From Brachybacterium sp. FME24 (lineage in GTDB: Bacteria; Actinomycetota; Actinomycetes; Actinomycetales; Dermabacteraceae): a stretch of DNA of 64,000 nucleotides. The notes beneath the pieces are model-generated. The model had not been told where the DNA came from, searched no databases, and was given only the letters and a program-made list of their open reading frames with translations. Below, piece after piece: positions 16,077 to 45,376 of this stretch. The translations under genes were made by a program, and so were the position numbers. Positions within the stretch are counted from its first letter, which is position 1. Each line of letters begins with the position of its first letter. Location of the stretch: contig NZ_JABUXV010000007.1 of assembly GCF_014897705.1 (NCBI RefSeq), forward strand, positions 186,001-250,000, read 5' to 3'.

Positions 16077-18059
16077 ATGCTCGGCACCATGAGCCGCCTC
16101 TGGCAGACGGTCCGCCCTATTCGTATCCGCCTCTACCTGGGTCTGCTCAGCGCCCTCACCGCCTCGATCGTGGCGCTGATGATCCCCCAGGTCCTCGAGA
16201 TCATCGTCAACCGTCTCGAGACCGACGCCGTGGCCGCGACCATCTGGACAGGTGGCGCCGTCGTGCTCGGACTCGGCCTGGTCGAAGCCGCCCTGATCTG
16301 GTTGCGGCGCACCTTCGCCGTCTCCCCGTCGACCACGGTCGAGAAGCTCATCCGCGTGGACTTCTACCGCAAGGTCCAGAACATGCCGGTCTCCTTCCAC
16401 GACGCGTGGGGGTCCGGTCAGCTGCTCTCGCGCATGCTCACCGACATCAACCAGATCCGCCGCTGGATCGCCTTCGGCATGATCATGGCGGTGACCAGCG
16501 CCGTCACCATCGTCGTCGGCATGATCCTGCTGTGGCGCTCCTCCGCGATCCTGGCCATCATCTTCTTCCTGGCCGCGGTGCCGGTCTCGGTGATCGCCTA
16601 CCGCTTCAACCGTAAGTTCTCGATCCTCTCGCGCCGCTCCCAGGACCAGAACGGCGACCTGGCCACCACCATCGAGCAGTCGGTGCAGGGCATTCGCGTG
16701 CTCAAGGCCTTCGGCCGCGGGCCCACTGCCCTGGACGGCTTCACCGAGCAGGCCGAAGAGCTGCGCATGACCGAGGTGCGCAAGGCGACCGCCATCGCGC
16801 GCTTCGACATGTTCATGTTCACGCTTCCCGAGCTCGCCCTCGGCGTGGCCCTGCTCGTCGGGCTCTACCAGACCGCGGACGGGGCGATCAGCACCGGCCA
16901 GCTCGCCTCCTACTTCGCGACCGCCACCCTCGTGGTGGGCCCGGTGCGCCAGCTCGGCATGCTGCTGGGCCAGGCCGTCAACGCCACCACCGCGCTCGAT
17001 CGTCATTACGAGGTGATGGACGAGCCCAACCGGATCACGTCACCGGAGAATCCGGTCGAGGTGGACACCACCCGCGCCACCGGCGCCGTGCGCCTGGAGG
17101 GCGTCCACTTCCGCTTCGAGGACGCTCCGGACCACGTGCCCGACGTGCTGGACGGGGTGAACCTCGAGATCCGTCCCGGCGAGACCATGGCACTGGTGGG
17201 CGTGACCGGCAGCGGCAAGTCCACTCTGCTGCAGCTGGTTCCGCGCCTGTACGACGTCACCTCCGGGTCGATCACGATCGACGGGGTCGAGATCCGCGAC
17301 ATGGGCCTGCGCGACCTGCGCACCCTGACCGCTTTCGCCTTCGAGGACGCCACCTTGTTCTCCGACTCGGTGCGGGTCAACGTGCTGATCGGCGCCGACC
17401 AGTCGCTGTCCGAGGACGAGCGGGAGGAGCTGCTCGAACTCGCGCTGCGCACGGCCGACGCCAGCTTCGCCTTCGACATGCCCGAGGGCGTGGACACCCC
17501 CATCGGCGAGGAGGGCATGAGCCTGTCCGGTGGCCAGCGCCAGCGGCTCGCACTGGCCCGGGCGATCGCCGCTCGCCCCGCGGTGCTGCTGCTGGACGAC
17601 CCGCTGTCGGCCCTGGACACCAAGACGGAGGAGACCGTCACCTCCCGCCTGCGCGAAGTGCTCTCCGGGACCACGACGCTGATCGTCGCCCACCGCACCT
17701 CGACCGTGGCCCTGGCCGACCGCGTCGCCCTGCTGGACCGCGGCCGCCTGGTCGCCGTCGGCACCCACACGGAGATGATGGAGACCTCGGCCCGCTACCG
17801 CTGGGTGATCGCGAACCAGGAGGAGGAGGTTCGGCGCGACCAGGACATCGAGACCCTCACCGGGGAGCTCGACCTGCGCGCGATCCAGAACGCCGCCGCG
17901 GCCGACGGCGATGCCCCTGCCACGCCGCCGGACCCGGAAGACGGTGCAGGCGATCCGCAGGCAGATGATCCGCGGCGCCACGAACCGACGGTGACCGCCG
18001 GGATCCCGTCCGTCGGCGGCCATCCGACGGAGCCGACCAGTGGGAAGGAGGGCCGATGA
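16077..18059 (+). CDS. ABC exporter, TMD-NBD half-transporter, subunit 1 of a heterodimer
   Basis: 660 residues: six membrane helices (about 15-310), NBD (about 340-590) and an acidic Pro-rich C-terminal tail. The NBD has an intact Walker A (VGVTGSGKST, Lys381), signature LSGGQRQR and His in VAHRTS, but Walker B reads LLLDD508-PLSALD, with Asp in place of the catalytic Glu. This is the asymmetric pattern of heterodimeric exporters such as LmrCD, BmrCD and TM287/288, where one ATP site is degenerate. The partner is the next gene, overlapping by ATGA. Substrate is probably a drug or lipid; that is family knowledge only. ATG at 16089 is an alternative start. Confidence 0.93.
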   Translation: MLGTMSRLWQTVRPIRIRLYLGLLSALTASIVALMIPQVLEIIVNRLETDAVAATIWTGGAVVLGLGLVEAALIWLRRTFAVSPSTTVEKLIRVDFYRKVQNMPVSFHDAWGSGQLLSRMLTDINQIRRWIAFGMIMAVTSAVTIVVGMILLWRSSAILAIIFFLAAVPVSVIAYRFNRKFSILSRRSQDQNGDLATTIEQSVQGIRVLKAFGRGPTALDGFTEQAEELRMTEVRKATAIARFDMFMFTLPELALGVALLVGLYQTADGAISTGQLASYFATATLVVGPVRQLGMLLGQAVNATTALDRHYEVMDEPNRITSPENPVEVDTTRATGAVRLEGVHFRFEDAPDHVPDVLDGVNLEIRPGETMALVGVTGSGKSTLLQLVPRLYDVTSGSITIDGVEIRDMGLRDLRTLTAFAFEDATLFSDSVRVNVLIGADQSLSEDEREELLELALRTADASFAFDMPEGVDTPIGEEGMSLSGGQRQRLALARAIAARPAVLLLDDPLSALDTKTEETVTSRLREVLSGTTTLIVAHRTSTVALADRVALLDRGRLVAVGTHTEMMETSARYRWVIANQEEEVRRDQDIETLTGELDLRAIQNAAAADGDAPATPPDPEDGAGDPQADDPRRHEPTVTAGIPSVGGHPTEPTSGKEGR

Positions 18060-19873
18060 GCACGACGACCGTTGATCAGAACCAGAACGACGACGAGCAG
18101 CAGACCCCTACCTCCGCCCAGGAGACGGCCTCCCGGAATCGCTCCTTCGCGCTCCTGGGTGAGCTCATCTCCCCGGTGAAGGGCCAGTTCGCGCTGATGG
18201 CGCTCATGGTCATCGTCGCGCAGCTCGCGGTGGTCGCGGGCCCCGCGATCATCGCCTGGGGCATCAACGTCGGCCTGCCCGAGCTGATCGACGGCAATTC
18301 GACCCCGGCCATCCAGGCCGCCGTGCTCACCATCGGCGCAGCGATCGTCGGCGGCATCCTGACCTTCGGGTACGTGCGCCAATCCGTGGTCGTCGGCCAG
18401 AAGATGCTGCTGGCGCTGCGGCGCCGCGTTTTCCGCTTCACCCAGCGCCAGGACCTCGAGTTCCACGAGTCGTACACCTCCGGCCGCATCGTCTCGCGAC
18501 AGACCTCCGATATGGAGGCGCTGCGCGAGCTGCTCGACTCGGGCGTGAACGTGATGGTCGGCGCCTCGCTGGCGATGGTGTTCACGATCGTGCTGATCGT
18601 GAGGATGGACTGGGTCACCGGCGTGGTGATGCTGTTGATGCTGATCCCCTGCGTCCTGCTGACGATGTGGTTCCAGAAGCGGTCGCGCATCGAGTACCGC
18701 GCGATCCGCACCCACTCCGCCCGGCTGATCGTCCACTTCGTCGAGGCCATGGCCGGCATCCGCGCGGTCAAGGCCTTCCGCAAGGAGGACCGCAACCAGG
18801 CGGAGTTCGACACCCTTGCCCAGGATTACCGTGACGCCTCGATGCGCTCCATCCGAGTGTTCGGCATCTACCAGCCGGCGCTGCGCATCCTCGCCAACGT
18901 GACGATCGCGGCCGTGCTCATCGTCGGTGGCTTCCGGGTGCTGTCGGACGATCTTCAGGTCGGGACCCTGGTCGCGCTGGTGCTGTACTCGCGGCGCTTC
19001 TTCCAGCCCGTCGATGAGATCGCGAACTTCTACAACGCGTTCCAGTCCGCGGTCTCGGCGCTCGAGAAGATCGCGAATCTGCTGGCCGTGCAGCCGCACG
19101 TCAAGGAATCCACCTCGCCGGTCCCTCTTCCCAGCTCGAGCGGCAAGGTCGACTTCGAGGACGTCTCCTTCCGGTACACGGAGGACGGCCCGCTGGTGCT
19201 GAAGCCCATGGATCTGCACATCCCCGCCGGCCAGACGATCGCGCTGGTGGGGCAGACGGGCGCCGGCAAGTCCACGGTCGCCAAGCTCATCTCGCGCTTC
19301 TACGACGCGACCGAGGGAAGCGTGCAGCTGGATGGAGTGGACCTGCGGGACATCTCGATGGAGGACCTGACGAGCAACATCGTCATGGTCACCCAGGAGG
19401 CGTACCTGTTCTCCGGGACCGTTGCGGACAACATCGCGCTGGGCAAGCCCGGGGCGAGCCGCGAGGAGATCGAGACGGCCGCCCGCGCGATCGGTGCGGA
19501 CTCCTTCATCGAGCAGCTCCCCTACGGCTACGACACCGACGTGAACAAACGCGGAGGTCGCGTCAGTGCAGGTCAGCGTCAGCTGATCTCCTTCGCCCGC
19601 GCCTTCCTCGCCGATCCCCGGGTGCTGATCCTCGACGAGGCCACCAGCTCCCTGGACATCCCCTCGGAGCGGATGGTGCAGGAGGGGCTCACGAAGCTGC
19701 TGGGGCACCGTACTTCGCTGATCATCGCCCACCGCCTGACCACGGTGATGATCGCCGACCGGGTGCTGGTGGTGCACGGCGGCGAGGTCGTCGAGGACGG
19801 CTCCCCGCAGGAGCTCGTCGCCCAGGGCGGTCGCTTCGCCGCGCTCTACCAGGCATGGCAGGACTCGATGTGA
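18056..19873 (+). CDS. ABC exporter, TMD-NBD half-transporter, subunit 2 of a heterodimer
   Basis: 605 residues, six membrane helices then an NBD. Walker A VGQTGAGKST (Lys405) and Walker B LILDE528-ATSSLD are canonical, with the catalytic Glu that subunit 1 lacks, whereas the signature is altered to VSAGQRQ (S504-A-G-Q507). Together the two subunits give one consensus ATP site (this Walker B with the LSGGQ of subunit 1) and one degenerate site. The H-switch IAHRL is present. Expression is coupled to subunit 1 by ATGA. A hairpin follows the gene. Confidence 0.93.
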   Translation: MSTTTVDQNQNDDEQQTPTSAQETASRNRSFALLGELISPVKGQFALMALMVIVAQLAVVAGPAIIAWGINVGLPELIDGNSTPAIQAAVLTIGAAIVGGILTFGYVRQSVVVGQKMLLALRRRVFRFTQRQDLEFHESYTSGRIVSRQTSDMEALRELLDSGVNVMVGASLAMVFTIVLIVRMDWVTGVVMLLMLIPCVLLTMWFQKRSRIEYRAIRTHSARLIVHFVEAMAGIRAVKAFRKEDRNQAEFDTLAQDYRDASMRSIRVFGIYQPALRILANVTIAAVLIVGGFRVLSDDLQVGTLVALVLYSRRFFQPVDEIANFYNAFQSAVSALEKIANLLAVQPHVKESTSPVPLPSSSGKVDFEDVSFRYTEDGPLVLKPMDLHIPAGQTIALVGQTGAGKSTVAKLISRFYDATEGSVQLDGVDLRDISMEDLTSNIVMVTQEAYLFSGTVADNIALGKPGASREEIETAARAIGADSFIEQLPYGYDTDVNKRGGRVSAGQRQLISFARAFLADPRVLILDEATSSLDIPSERMVQEGLTKLLGHRTSLIIAHRLTTVMIADRVLVVHGGEVVEDGSPQELVAQGGRFAALYQAWQDSM

Positions 19874-38784: not shown

Positions 38785-40152
38785 TCAGAACAGGGCGAGC
38801 TCCGGATCGGGGACGTGGTCGGCGACCGGGGCCTCGGGGCGCCCGAGGGCCCGGAACTCCCAGCCGGCGGCGCGCCAGTCCCGCGGAGTGAGCACGGTGC
38901 GGCCGTCGATGATCCGCGGGGCCGCGACCAGGCGGGCCGTGGCGATCGGGTCGAGGTCACGGTACTCGCGCCACTCGGTCAGCAGCAGCACGAGCTCCGC
39001 GCCCCGCAGGGCCTCGCTGGCGTCCGCCTCGGTGACCAGGCCCTCGATGCGACGCTCCGCATTGGCCAGCGCCTCCGGATCAGTGACGGTGACGTGGGCA
39101 CCGGAGGCCATGAGCCGGGAGGCGACCTCGAGGGCCGGGGAGTCGCGCACGTCATCGCTGTCGGGCTTGAAGGCCGCGCCGAGCACGGTGATACGGCGCC
39201 CGCGCAGGGGACCGAGCATCTCGCGGGCCAGCTCCACCACACGCACTCGTCGGCGCTGGTTCACGGCGTCGACCTCGCGGAGGAACCCGAGGGCCTGCCC
39301 GGCGCCGAGATCCTCCGCGCTGGCGATGAAGGCCCGGATGTCCTTGGGCAGGCAACCGCCCCCGAAGCCCACGCCGGAGCGCAGGAACTTGTTCCCGATG
39401 CGGTCGTCCATACCGAGCGCGCGGGAGATGTCGGTGACGTCGGCGCCGGTGGCCTCGCACAGCTCGGCCATCGCGTTGATGAAGGAGATCTTCGTGGCCA
39501 GGAACGCGTTGGCGGAGACCTTGACCAGCTCGGCGGTCTCGAAGCCCATCACCAGGCGCTGCACGCCGCCCTCGAGGATCTGCGCATAGACGGCGTCGAG
39601 CATCTCGACCTCGGTGCCGCCGGCATCGGGATCGCGCACGCCGTAGACGACGCGATCGGGCTCCAGGGTGTCCTGCACGGCGAAGCCCTCCCGCAGGAAC
39701 TCCGGGTTCCACACCAGGTGCACCCCGTCGACCCGCTCGAGGCTCTCGGCGAGGCCGCGGGCGGTGCCGGCCGGCACGGTGGACTTCCCGACCACGAGGG
39801 TCGCGGCGCCGTCGCGGGCGGGAAGCACTGCGGCGAGCGAGTCGACGGCTGCGTGGAGGTGGCTGAGGTCCGCCCCGAACCCGTCGGCCCGCTGCGGGGT
39901 CCCCAGGCCCAGGAAGTGGACCTCGGCGTCGGCGAGGTCGGCGTAGTCGGTGGTGAAGTGCAGACGGCCGGAGGCCAGCCCGCGGGCCAGGATCTCGGCG
40001 AAGCCGGGTTCGTGGAACGGTGCCTCGCCCGCGCTGAGCTGCTCGATGCGACGGGCGTCGACATCCAGACCGATCACCTCGTGGCCGAGCTCGGCCATGC
40101 TCGCGGCATGGACGGCGCCGAGGTATCCCACACCGATGACGGAGAGCTTCAT
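38785..40152 (-). CDS. ugd: UDP-glucose 6-dehydrogenase
   Basis: 455 residues. It oxidises UDP-glucose to UDP-glucuronate with two NAD+. The N-terminal Rossmann motif is GVGYLGAVHAASMAELGHEV, the central domain has KVSANAFLATKISFINAMAE, the catalytic Cys is in GFGGGCLPKD, and the C-terminal NAD/UDP-binding domain begins at VLGAAFKPDSDDVRDSPAL. UDP-glucuronate feeds surface polysaccharide or glycolipid synthesis, yet no glycosyltransferases are adjacent; the neighbour upstream is an unusual ABC-exporter homologue on the same strand, 232 nt away. Confidence 0.95.
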   Translation of the reverse strand: MKLSVIGVGYLGAVHAASMAELGHEVIGLDVDARRIEQLSAGEAPFHEPGFAEILARGLASGRLHFTTDYADLADAEVHFLGLGTPQRADGFGADLSHLHAAVDSLAAVLPARDGAATLVVGKSTVPAGTARGLAESLERVDGVHLVWNPEFLREGFAVQDTLEPDRVVYGVRDPDAGGTEVEMLDAVYAQILEGGVQRLVMGFETAELVKVSANAFLATKISFINAMAELCEATGADVTDISRALGMDDRIGNKFLRSGVGFGGGCLPKDIRAFIASAEDLGAGQALGFLREVDAVNQRRRVRVVELAREMLGPLRGRRITVLGAAFKPDSDDVRDSPALEVASRLMASGAHVTVTDPEALANAERRIEGLVTEADASEALRGAELVLLLTEWREYRDLDPIATARLVAAPRIIDGRTVLTPRDWRAAGWEFRALGRPEAPVADHVPDPELALF

Positions 40153-40384: not shown

Positions 40385-43300
40385 TCAGACGCTCTCGTCC
40401 TGGGTGCGCAGCCAGCGCGCGAGACGGGAGGACGGGTCCGCGGCCAGGGCCGTGGGGGCACCGTCCTCGCGCACGTCGCTGCTCTCGAACCACAGCACGC
40501 GGTCCATGGCCGTGATGGTCTCCGGGTCACGGCTGCTGACGATCGCGGTGCGCCCCTGGACGAGGGCCGCCAGCGCCGCCAGGACCGGCTGACGCTCAGC
40601 GGTCGACAGATCCGCGTCCGCGGCGTCGAGCACGACGATCGGGGCATCGCGCAGCAGCGCCCGGGCGATCGCGATCCGTCGCCGCTGACCGTCGGTCAGG
40701 ACGTTCCCGCGTCGCACCAGCACGGTGTCGAAGCCGGAGCTGAGCTGGGCGATGACGTCGTCCACCCCGGCGCGGCGAGCGGCCTCGGCCACCTCGGCGT
40801 CGGTGGCGTCGGGACGGCCGATGCGGATGTTCTCGCGCACCGTATCGGTGAACAGCACGGGCTCGCGCTGGACGACGGCGACCTGGCGGCGCAGATCCGT
40901 CAGGGAGAGGGTGCGGGTGTCGAAGCGATCCAGCAGCACGCGACCGGTATCCGGCTGGTCGAAGCGCAGCAGGTAGGAGATCAGCGCCGCGGACTCGTGG
41001 CCCGCCCGGTCCAGCAGGGCCACGTGCTGCCCGGCCGGGACCACCAGGGAGACCGCATCGAACAGGTCACCGCCGGGCCCACCGGCCGTGTTGACGGCGG
41101 AGAACACGATCTCGCCGCCCACCTGGTCCACGGGCTGGGTGCGCTGGGGTTCGGGGATGCCGGCCTCGCGCGCGAGCAGAGCGGCGATACGGTCGCCCGC
41201 GGCGGGCGCCGACCTCACGCTGCCCAGGTGCTGGAGCAGCTCGCGCAGCACGACGATCGTGATCAGGACGTCGGCGAGGACGAGCACCAGGTCACCCGGG
41301 GTCATGGTTCCTGCGGCGACCCGCTGGCCCCCCAGGAGCAGAGTGGCGACGACGCCGATCCCGGCGATGAGCTGCGTGAGCAGGTGCACCAGGGTCTCGG
41401 AGCGACGGGCCCGGGTCAGCGCGCGACCGGCGCGGGTGCCGGCTTCGGTCAGTCCGCGCTCGGAGCGGGACTCCAGGCCGTAGGACTGAATGGTGCCGGT
41501 GGCGGCGACCAGCTCCTCGGCGGTGTCGGCGAGCATGCGGGACTCGGTGAGCGCCTTGCGTTCCGCAATGCGGCCGCGGCGCAGCGCGAACGTGGCGGTC
41601 AGCACGTACAGCGCCCCGACCACGAGGAGCACGAGCGCCGCGAGCGGCTCGACGATCACGGTGACCAGCAGCAGGGACAGGAGGGTCAGCGCGGCCGCGA
41701 CGGCGCGCGGGCCCGAGTGGGACAGGAGATCCCGCAACGCGGCGACATCATCGATCAGCGGGCGCACCGTGGCATCGTCGGCCTGACCGCCGTTGCGGGC
41801 CGAGATCGTGGGCGCCCCGCCGTCGCCCGGGGACAGGCGATGGACGTGAGCGAGCAGCCGGGAGCGCAGGGCGGTCGCGATGCGCACCCCGACTCGGCCG
41901 AGGGCGGCGATCGCCGTGAAACGAGCGATCACCTGCAGGATCAGCAGCACGGCCAGCACGATGACGCTGGTGACCAGGGCGCGCTCGGGGTTGCCGGTGA
42001 CGCCCGCCAGGGCAGGAAGATCGGCGCCGGTGGAGGCGACGGCGGCGTCGACCGCGTACTTCAGCGGGAACGGCAGGGCGATCAACAGCCACACGCTCAG
42101 AAGCAGGGCGATCGCCCCGGTCAGCAGAGCCGCGCGATGGGTGCGCAGGTACGGACTGAGCACCTGGAGCACCTGGTGGGCGGGGCCGTCGGCTCGACCG
42201 CTGCCCGGCGATTCGGCGAGGGGAGCGGGCGATTCGGGGGCACGGTCCGCTCCGTGGCCGGGCTCGGCTGCTCCCGACGCGCCGGCGCCGGGGGTGGCGG
42301 AGGCGGGGGTGGCGGGTACACCGGTGCCGGACCCGGCAGCCGCGAGCGCCGTGGTGCCCGGCACGCCGGCGCTGGTCGTCGACGGCTCCGACTCCGTCAC
42401 GCGGGGCGGAGTCTTCCCCCTGCCGATCTTGCCCAGCGACGGTCTCATGGTCGTTCGAGCGTTCTTCCCGGCCACCGACCCCGTGCCGGTCTCGTCGGCG
42501 CGCTGCCCGCCGAGCAGCGATTCCCGGGCCCAGCCGAACTTCTTGGCCTTCGGGGACATCGTCACGGGGACGGGGAAGGCCGGTGCGCCGTCGAGGTCAT
42601 GCCTGGTCGATGCAGCGTCGTCGGCGGGGACCTCGGGCTCTCCTGCTGCCTCCGGGCCCGCTGTACCCGACTGCTGATCGGGCCCCGACGGGTCGCGATC
42701 CATTCCTGCCTCGTGCCCGACGGGCTCACCCTCAGCCGGCTCGTCGGCGTTCGCGCTGTCGTCGGAGTCGGCGGACATGTCGGTGTGCGTCGGGTCGGCG
42801 GGGTCGGCGGGGTCGGTGGGGTCGGCGGAATCGGCGACCACGGTCCACCGATCTCCGGATTCGGGGTCGTGCTGCGCGGTACCGCTGGGCGGCTCGCCCT
42901 GGGCACCCTGGGGCTCCGGGGCCGCTTCGACCTCGTCGATCGCTTCGGGGTCGTCCGGGCTCTCATCCTGCTCGTGGATCGGCTCGTGCACCGCATCCTG
43001 CAGCCAGGCGTCCTCGAGAGTGTTCGGCCCGTCGTCATATCGGGGCTCGTCGACGGCGGCGGTCCCGCCCGTCTGCGCATCATCGACCTCGGAGGCAGAC
43101 CACACGTCCGCCTCTGCCCCGGAGGACCAGGACGGGCTCGTCGTGCGCAGTCTCGTCGAATCGACGTCCCCGGCGTCCCCGGCGTCGGAATCTCCGCCGT
43201 CGGACTCGACGGAGACCGCCTCGAGGGGAACGGGCTCGGCCGGGACCTCCGGGGAATAGCTGGGCTCGGCCGAATCCTGAGGGAACGATCCGGGCTCGGC

Positions 43301-43870
43301 CGGGGCCTCCGGGGAAAAGGTGGGCTCGGCCGAATCCTGAGGGAACGATCCGGGCTCGGCAGGGTCCTCCGGGGAAAAGGTGGGCTCGGCCGAATCCTGA
43401 GGGAACGATCCGGGCTCGGCAGGGTCCTCCGGGGAAAAGGTGGGCTCGGCCGAATCCTGAGGGAACGATCCGGGCTCGGCAGGGTCCTCCGGGGAAAAGG
43501 TGGGCTCGGCCGAATCCTGAGGGAACGATCCGGGCTCGGCAGGGTCCTCCGGGGAAAAGGTGGGCTCGGCCGGGCTCCGCGGGGACAGGCCGGGCTCGGC
43601 CTGAATCGACTCCGGCTCCGATTCCGGCTCGACCGAAGCGGGATGGGACACGCCGCGTTCAGCCGGTGCGATGTCGGCGGAATCGGGCTCGGCGCGATCG
43701 GGCTCTGCGGGGCTGGGCATCAGAGGACTCGAGCTCGCCGGGCTGAGCTCGGCGGGACTGAAGCCGGTGGGACCGGGCTCCGCGGGCACCGTGGTGTCCG
43801 CGGGACCGAGAGCCGCGGCGCTGCTTGCACGGGGGCTCCTGCCACGCTTCCTGTTCCTGTTCGACGTCAT
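40385..43870 (-). CDS. ABC-exporter homologue with catalytically dead NBD and long repeat-bearing N-terminus
   Basis: 1161 residues from the ATG at 43870 (GGAGGTG upstream). Residues 1-560 are disordered, acidic and Pro/Glu/Ser-rich, with 5.5 copies of the 20-residue unit AEPTFSPEDPAEPGSFPQDS at 101-210. A six-helix exporter TMD follows (about 565-870), then an NBD. All catalytic motifs are altered: Walker A reads DRAGHESA (954-961) with no Lys; the signature is LTDGQ (1058-1062); Walker B is VVLD1082-A-A, lacking the Glu; and the H-switch His is Ser (SSRD, Ser1113). The Q-loop Gln1001 remains. Such a subunit cannot hydrolyse ATP alone. The frame is intact over 3.5 kb, so it is under selection rather than a pseudogene. 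Confidence 0.9.
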   Translation of the reverse strand: MTSNRNRKRGRSPRASSAAALGPADTTVPAEPGPTGFSPAELSPASSSPLMPSPAEPDRAEPDSADIAPAERGVSHPASVEPESEPESIQAEPGLSPRSPAEPTFSPEDPAEPGSFPQDSAEPTFSPEDPAEPGSFPQDSAEPTFSPEDPAEPGSFPQDSAEPTFSPEDPAEPGSFPQDSAEPTFSPEAPAEPGSFPQDSAEPSYSPEVPAEPVPLEAVSVESDGGDSDAGDAGDVDSTRLRTTSPSWSSGAEADVWSASEVDDAQTGGTAAVDEPRYDDGPNTLEDAWLQDAVHEPIHEQDESPDDPEAIDEVEAAPEPQGAQGEPPSGTAQHDPESGDRWTVVADSADPTDPADPADPTHTDMSADSDDSANADEPAEGEPVGHEAGMDRDPSGPDQQSGTAGPEAAGEPEVPADDAASTRHDLDGAPAFPVPVTMSPKAKKFGWARESLLGGQRADETGTGSVAGKNARTTMRPSLGKIGRGKTPPRVTESEPSTTSAGVPGTTALAAAGSGTGVPATPASATPGAGASGAAEPGHGADRAPESPAPLAESPGSGRADGPAHQVLQVLSPYLRTHRAALLTGAIALLLSVWLLIALPFPLKYAVDAAVASTGADLPALAGVTGNPERALVTSVIVLAVLLILQVIARFTAIAALGRVGVRIATALRSRLLAHVHRLSPGDGGAPTISARNGGQADDATVRPLIDDVAALRDLLSHSGPRAVAAALTLLSLLLVTVIVEPLAALVLLVVGALYVLTATFALRRGRIAERKALTESRMLADTAEELVAATGTIQSYGLESRSERGLTEAGTRAGRALTRARRSETLVHLLTQLIAGIGVVATLLLGGQRVAAGTMTPGDLVLVLADVLITIVVLRELLQHLGSVRSAPAAGDRIAALLAREAGIPEPQRTQPVDQVGGEIVFSAVNTAGGPGGDLFDAVSLVVPAGQHVALLDRAGHESAALISYLLRFDQPDTGRVLLDRFDTRTLSLTDLRRQVAVVQREPVLFTDTVRENIRIGRPDATDAEVAEAARRAGVDDVIAQLSSGFDTVLVRRGNVLTDGQRRRIAIARALLRDAPIVVLDAADADLSTAERQPVLAALAALVQGRTAIVSSRDPETITAMDRVLWFESSDVREDGAPTALAADPSSRLARWLRTQDESV
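43241..43570 (-). repeat. 60-bp coding tandem repeat, about 5.5 copies
   Basis: A 60-nt unit repeats within the ABC-exporter gene. The copies at 43381-43440, 43441-43500 and 43501-43560 are identical base for base, and the flanking copies differ by a few bases. Identity at silent positions means recent expansion by slippage or unequal recombination. The unit encodes two imperfect 10-residue halves (AEPTFSPEDP and AEPGSFPQDS). Confidence 0.95.

Positions 43871-45293: not shown

Positions 45294-45376
<83 letters not shown>

Follow-up and report, generated by a model that had tools for sequence, protein, structure and literature searches.

We analysed a stretch of 64,000 nucleotides (the window) from Brachybacterium sp. 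FME24 (NCBI RefSeq assembly GCF_014897705.1, contig NZ_JABUXV010000007.1, positions 186,001 to 250,000 of the forward strand) and focus on gene A, which occupies positions 40385..43870 of the window on the minus strand and encodes a 1161-residue protein that joins a degenerate ATP-binding cassette (ABC) exporter to a long N-terminal tail. The genome that holds the window, G000 in our numbering of the compared genomes (4.8 Mb, 67 contigs, 99.99% complete), has B. alimentarium 908_11 and B. tyrofermentans FME25 as its closest named relatives. Gene A was delimited from its open reading frame (ORF), start codon, Shine-Dalgarno sequence and Pfam domains. It starts with the ATG at 43870, ten bases downstream of a GGAGG, and runs through 1161 undisrupted codons to the stop at 40385. 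Pfam recognizes ABC_membrane (E 1.1e-21, residues 584-870) and ABC_tran (E 4.1e-15, residues 938-1083).

The exporter half-transporter corresponds to the C-terminal ~591 residues, and was divided with the help of Pfam, alignment and an AlphaFold model into a transmembrane domain (TMD; 41120..42160, minus strand) and a nucleotide-binding domain (NBD; 40388..41119, minus strand), the latter retaining its fold in the model and having lost its ATP site. The model is a shallow one, built from nine sequences, and presents six long helices and the NBD at a mean predicted local distance difference test score (pLDDT) of 74.8 and a predicted template modelling score (pTM) of 0.48. Judged by eye, the TMD differs from that of the intact paralogue described below in the region of the first intracellular loop (ICL1), where it carries an insert of variable length. 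The best Foldseek matches to the model were TmrAB, TM287/288 and NdvA (PDB 7znu, 7zo8), with TM-scores of ~0.5. The two Pfam domains together with the six helices make gene A a type I (type IV fold) ABC exporter by descent.

The N-terminal tail (42161..43870, minus strand; ~570 residues) accounts for about half of the protein and is low in hydrophobic residues (12%), acidic (Asp/Glu 19%) and proline-rich (Pro 16%). An in-frame 60-bp tandem repeat (43231..43572, minus strand; 5.7 copies, 98% matches) encodes a 20-residue unit within it. The tail was compared among the nine A proteins with readable upstream sequence, those of G016 and G027 being cut by contig ends and that of G028 being unclear; G028 is a frameshift-rich assembly, of which the tail and some neighbouring genes were left uninterpreted. 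Three motifs recur, all on the minus strand: W-x-Q-[DEG] (residues 289-292; 42995..43006) in 8/9 proteins, being absent in G017; [DE][RH]WxVV (residues 340-345; 42836..42853) in 6/9; and FPVPVTMSP[KR]AKKxGW[AS]R[ED]SLL (residues 432-453; 42512..42577), likewise in 6/9. Of the third motif G014 has just the FPVP start, and a genome-wide search of G000 returned it a single time, in gene A itself. With the starts chosen here, the tail measures ~200-570 residues in eight of the nine proteins; the start of the G017 protein is uncertain, the tail comprising 198 residues from an upstream ATG and almost none according to the gene caller. Short conserved motifs within disordered cytosolic tails are typical docking sites.

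Loss of the ATP site

The former ATP site was read by aligning the 12 A proteins with 16 intact paralogues (B) and with 22 relatives that lie outside the genus. The defining columns were Gly1, Gly4 and Gly6 of the P-loop, the Lys, Ser and Thr of Walker A, the Q-loop Gln, the LSGGQ signature, the Asp and Glu of Walker B and the H-switch His, and these are canonical in 16/16 B proteins and in 22/22 outside relatives. In all twelve A proteins the Walker A Lys, Walker B Glu, Q-loop Gln, H-switch His and LSGGQ that define a functional ABC ATPase are absent or altered. The former P-loop of gene A (residues 954-962, with full-length numbering equal to that of the exporter piece plus 560; 40985..41011, minus strand, as are the other sites) carries Glu959 at the position of Gly6, Ser960 at that of the Lys and Ala962 at that of the Thr. 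The changes to Glu and to Ala at Gly6 and Thr are found in 12/12 proteins, and the Lys has become Ala in nine and Ser in three. Alignment likewise places Arg1002 (40865..40867) at the Q-loop Gln, again in 12/12; the signature (40685..40699) reads LTDGQ in the window and L[TS]DG[QSR] across the family, with Asp1060 replacing Gly3 throughout. Within the former Walker B and D-loop (40604..40627) the catalytic Glu is Ala1083, a position that varies between species (Ala in six, Asp in three, Arg in two, Gly in one), and the H-switch His (40529..40531) is Arg1114, with Arg in eleven proteins and Gln in one.

The initial annotation of this DNA had described an exporter homologue with every ATPase motif lost and the frame kept, a description that the alignment upholds and extends by the Q-loop Gln. 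Its calls of a missing Walker A Lys, an LTDGQ signature and a catalytic Glu turned into Ala proved correct; the H-switch His is indeed gone, and the Ser read in its place belongs to the preceding column. The N-terminal tail went unmentioned in that annotation. Sequencing or assembly error as the source of this state was considered and rejected, since the contig that encloses the locus is 258 kb long and 11 further genomes share the same state.

Several of the replacements have become fixed. B and the outside relatives share 22 conserved columns in the nucleotide motifs, of which seven are newly fixed in A (Glu959, Ala962, Arg1002, Asp1060, Arg1064, Asp1085 and Arg1114), ten are variable and five are kept; of 45 other NBD columns conserved in the same way, one is newly fixed, 12 are variable and 32 are kept. 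New fixation, set against the variable and kept columns taken together, is thus commoner in the motifs than elsewhere in the NBD (p 0.001). These conditional counts were used because a comparison over all NBD columns is biased, the motif columns being conserved in B.

Distribution of gene A and selection upon it

Of 38 Brachybacterium genomes, 12 carry gene A (G000, G001, G004, G009, G014, G016, G017, G021, G024, G027, G028 and G036). It was found in none of nine genomes from other genera of the family (E 1e-60), nor among the 22 order-level relatives read from 47 matched genomes outside the genus, each of which showed one match, with the three best candidates per genome being scored; 23 such loci were read, one of which (L085) gave no ORF. 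The comparison of orthologues that the initial annotation had called for therefore yielded the same degenerate motifs in 12/12 carriers, as opposed to intact orthologues and a disrupted copy in the window.

Selection was assessed by pairwise NG86 ratios of nonsynonymous to synonymous substitution (dN/dS), from which G027 was left out as being out of frame with 21 stops. Among the six nearest species, which form 15 pairs, dN/dS amounts to 0.05-0.33 in the NBD and 0.18-0.52 in the TMD, the NBD value lying below that of the TMD in 14/15 pairs. These ratios indicate that gene A is under purifying selection, which, with the degenerate state common to 12 genomes, supports the pseudo-transporter of the initial annotation and answers its proposal to compare dN/dS between the two domains. 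The NBD is also more identical than the TMD in 65/66 A pairs vs 26/120 B pairs. A better-conserved NBD is the usual pattern of ABC proteins according to work on degenerate ABC sites (PMC7756269), and this pattern persists in A after the loss of ATP chemistry. Over 28 species pairs, mean TMD identity is 0.56 for A and 0.86 for B, which suggests that the TMD of A is no longer on the same transport path. Both parts of A, as judged from such identities, evolve faster than those of B, and the membrane part far more so.

Three observations on individual copies may be added. The A proteins of B. alimentarium and B. tyrofermentans (L052, L053) contain a low-complexity insert of 46 residues near the start of the NBD, and the NBD dN/dS of the pair G001-G036 is 0.48 with the 46-residue insert and 0.05 without it. 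The A proteins of G001 and G036 are 97-100% identical (TMD, NBD), yet rpoB joins G036 to G000 and not to G001; gene exchange is a possible origin of these near-identical copies. The G017 copy (L059 11965-13635) is the most diverged at 42%, shows a gap within its last membrane helices as well as a Glu before the Q-loop Arg, and may be drifting.

Paralogue B, the glycosyltransferase cluster and genomes without B

In 9/12 A genomes an intact paralogue, B, lies on the same strand as A and begins ~6-9 kb downstream of where A starts. The cluster is fullest in G021 and G009, where the order is A, ugd1, a GT28-like gene, two GT4 glycosyltransferase genes, B, an APH-like gene and ugd2; one or both ugd copies are absent from other genomes. 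In the window, the next gene downstream of A is ugd (38785..40152, minus strand; Pfam, NCBIfam), a nucleotide-sugar dehydrogenase gene identified as the ugd1 copy, being 84% identical to the A-linked ugd1 of G009 and 76% to its ugd2. The absence of a partner next to gene A, as initially described, applies to G000 and G004 and does not extend to the nine genomes with an intact paralogue downstream, and the cell-surface glycan role then hinted at agrees with the gene context, as the glycosyltransferase/ABC/APH cluster follows A in those nine genomes, mostly with ugd.

Within a species, A and B are 30% identical in the TMD and 46% in the NBD (mean of eight). In a tree that includes both, the A proteins form one clade (Shimodaira-Hasegawa-like approximate likelihood ratio test, SH-aLRT, 100) on a long stem of 1.96, and this clade shares a group (99) with B and with the closest of the outside relatives; this was a quick tree with long branches, in which the exact point of attachment of A is unsure. 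Gene A is most simply read as a duplicate of the B lineage that would have changed fast and then settled. B itself occurs without A in seven Brachybacterium genomes, of which five are at least 99% complete (the others being G029 with 74% and G032 with 84%), and its cluster apparently exists in other families without A. At the outside-genus loci L099-L106, an APH-like gene follows B in 8/8 cases and glycosyltransferase genes precede it in 7/8, the contig of the eighth ending at B. These loci and L049 (9533-19001) delineate a cluster conserved within the order, in which a GT28-like enzyme and GT4 enzymes accompany an intact MsbA-like exporter and one or two proteins of the APH family, with ugd present in some cases. 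Adaptation of B to A was not seen: a single column separates the B proteins of A-carrying and A-lacking species, vs 0.54 in random splits, 33% of which reach it.

Two near-complete genomes retain A without B. Whole-genome searches with B returned A and then only exporters of at most 33% identity over the membrane part in G000, and A followed by exporters of at most 33-34% in G004 and G016; B is therefore absent from the first two genomes and was not found in G016, which we do not count here because it is an 81% draft whose contig ends at this place. That B had been missed by assembly was rejected on the basis of these same searches. G000, G004 and G016 also lack the APH protein and the first glycosyltransferase (with G021 and G028 as positives for the latter), the second glycosyltransferase gave no close match in a search of G000, and the third is missing from G000 as judged at the locus only. 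What is retained in the absence of these genes is A with ugd1 in G004 and A with its adjacent ugd in G000, and all three tail motifs are found in G000 and two of them in G004.

An rpoB tree of 33 of the 38 genomes (G015, G016, G027, G029 and G032 have a missing or partial rpoB) places G000 in a clade of six (support 100/100) and G004 as sister to the B-carrying G026 (100/98). As the other five members of the former clade carry both A and B, B was probably lost in G000. That the deletion arose by recombination between the two ugd copies was examined and discarded, the G000 copy being no farther from G009 ugd1 than from G009 ugd2 in every 150-base segment in which both could be read, with no chimera seen. 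Overall dN/dS of A is 0.28-0.34 on the G000 branch vs 0.32-0.37 on the comparison branch, with intervals that span zero, and the TMD taken separately is lower on the G000 branch. Recent decay of A was rejected given the intact frame, the motif losses common to relatives and an overall ratio that is not raised; a pseudogene is not indicated either, the frame being undisrupted and selection overall not relaxed, although the ratio of the NBD alone is higher on this branch, with intervals that span zero.

Elsewhere in the window, a perfect hexanucleotide repeat, CACAGG, spans 45294-45376 in 13.8 copies between the ends of convergent genes for a DsbA-like and a VOC-family protein, and is a possible length-variable site.

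Possible roles and known systems

We tentatively favour, at somewhat less than an even chance, the reading of A as a pseudo-transporter that derives from a glycan exporter and is retained by selection as an ATP-independent membrane platform, acting as a scaffold or regulator. According to this proposal, A would have arisen long ago by duplication of B, the intact ABC exporter in a cluster for surface glycans, and would then have given up the binding and hydrolysis of ATP and been kept as a membrane platform. Its NBD would be fixed in one conformation by new charged residues that take the place of the nucleotide, and docking motifs in the long cytosolic tail would recruit or regulate glycan enzymes, with Ugd as one putative partner and the glycosyltransferases or B as others where they are present. 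The platform would in this way be tied to the supply of UDP-glucuronate, given the adjacent ugd in G000, and, where it exists, to the glycosyltransferase/exporter module. The P-loop/Q/H face and the signature face bear opposite charges, which suggests salt bridges in place of Mg-ATP. A more specific and rather doubtful version holds that the ATP site has been rebuilt, with a face of Glu959, Arg1002 and Arg1114 paired by such bridges to a face of Asp1060 and Arg1064 on the signature helix, such that two A chains might lock as a nucleotide-free NBD sandwich and form a permanent platform from which the disordered tail recruits surface-glycan enzymes, with or without B.

Several results weigh against the platform. 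Since a more conserved NBD than TMD is usual for ABC proteins, this pattern tells that the NBD is retained and does not thereby show a new role; moreover, the NBD of A is less conserved than that of B (0.69 vs 0.84, mean of 28 species pairs), and at the high divergence of distant A pairs the dN/dS of the TMD is ~1. Once only changed columns are considered, new fixation is weakly commoner in the motifs than elsewhere (7:10 vs 1:12, p 0.09). On the G000 branch, dN/dS of the NBD is higher (0.28-0.40 vs 0.18-0.22, with intervals that span zero) and B may have been lost recently there, while in G017 none of the three tail motifs is found. The link of A to glycans is drawn from gene context as its sole basis. 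Finally, B occurs in 9/12 A genomes vs 7/26 genomes without A (Fisher p 0.012, relatedness ignored) and in one cluster with it, as would be expected for a heterodimer.

This last point leads to the possible, though distinctly less probable, explanation of A as the half that does not hydrolyse ATP within a heterodimeric A:B exporter of glycans, in which the Walker A/B/H site of B would be completed by the LTDGQ of A and the other site would be dead. Besides the shared cluster and strand, it can draw on the grouping of A and B apart from other exporters in the tree, and on the heterodimeric nature of TmrAB and TM287/288 among the best Foldseek matches, at TM-scores of just ~0.5. However, B exists without A in seven genomes of the genus and apparently in other families too, and A is maintained in G000 and G004, where B is absent, so that this natural partner is not always at hand. 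Neither composite site would be canonical, because A alters its own signature, which would have to complete the live site of B, whereas B keeps LSGGQ in 16/16 proteins only to face the dead site of A; in addition, the TMD of A changes rapidly, and no adaptation of B to A was seen. A regulatory contact between A and B may nevertheless exist. That A works as an ATP-independent channel or exchanger, and not as a scaffold, would fit the six long helices retained in the model, but the TMD is the faster-evolving part and by eye a variable insert takes the place of its ICL1 region, which makes this unlikely. Slightly less likely still is that A is energized by another intact half-exporter encoded elsewhere, as the initial annotation had suggested for a channel: the genome offers 151 ABC_tran matches, yet none within the window is a candidate linked to A, and B as the natural partner is absent from this genome. 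We give the least credence to A of G000 being a relic in decay since the B cluster disappeared; this genome has neither B nor the APH protein nor the glycosyltransferases searched for, and the NBD ratio on its branch is somewhat, not significantly, higher, but the 1161-codon frame is intact, the overall ratio is not raised and the degenerate motifs are common to relatives that have B.

The usual explanation of a degenerate ABC site is an asymmetric pump of which it forms one half and in which ATP is still held. Gene A combines loss of the catalytic nucleotide residues in one chain with newly fixed charged residues, an NBD under selection and survival without its paralogue, and, if the platform reading is true, the ABC exporter fold can be retained in bacteria for a role other than pumping. 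The A/B duplicate pair of B. alimentarium and B. tyrofermentans, both cheese isolates, makes such a non-pump role testable. A search of the open-licence PMC literature, other print not being covered, found no title on the gene A family.

Among known systems, the intact ATPase NdvA, an exporter of cyclic glucan, is homologous to A and exports a glycan, and is unlike A in its ATPase. The sulfonylurea receptors SUR1 and SUR2 of KATP channels use the ABC exporter fold as a regulator and not as a pump, and they bind nucleotides, for which A lacks the residues. Exporter B is a paralogue at the same locus that is canonical in its ATP-site columns (16/16) and has no long tail in the gene calls, with the start of the G021 B overlapping the preceding gene. 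The heterodimeric type I exporters with one degenerate site (TmrAB, TM287/288, BmrCD, TAP1/2) share their fold and domain order with A, as well as non-canonical Walker B, signature and H residues. They function as a pair, whereas A is found in two near-complete genomes without its paralogue, and, unlike in them, the losses in A affect P-loop, Q-loop and Walker residues of one and the same chain, whose own signature is altered as well. The degenerate site of TM287/288 is described as still binding nucleotide (PMC5216877), and the same is described for those of CFTR and MRP1 (PMC7756269). The fungal transporters of the Pdr5 type resemble A in that one NBD has lost the Walker A Lys, the Walker B Glu and the H-loop His, as described in the same work (PMC7756269), but they are full-length single chains of reverse domain order. 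In Pdr5 the changes are reported to meet in a single composite site, which deviates and holds ATP, with the second site remaining canonical (PMC8421411, PMC7756269). The window itself contains a classical heterodimeric ABC exporter at 16077-19873, with LLLDDP (Asp at the catalytic Glu) in one chain vs VSAGQ in the other, and thus one degenerate and one canonical site; this pair has the Pdr5-like arrangement, in contrast to A and B.

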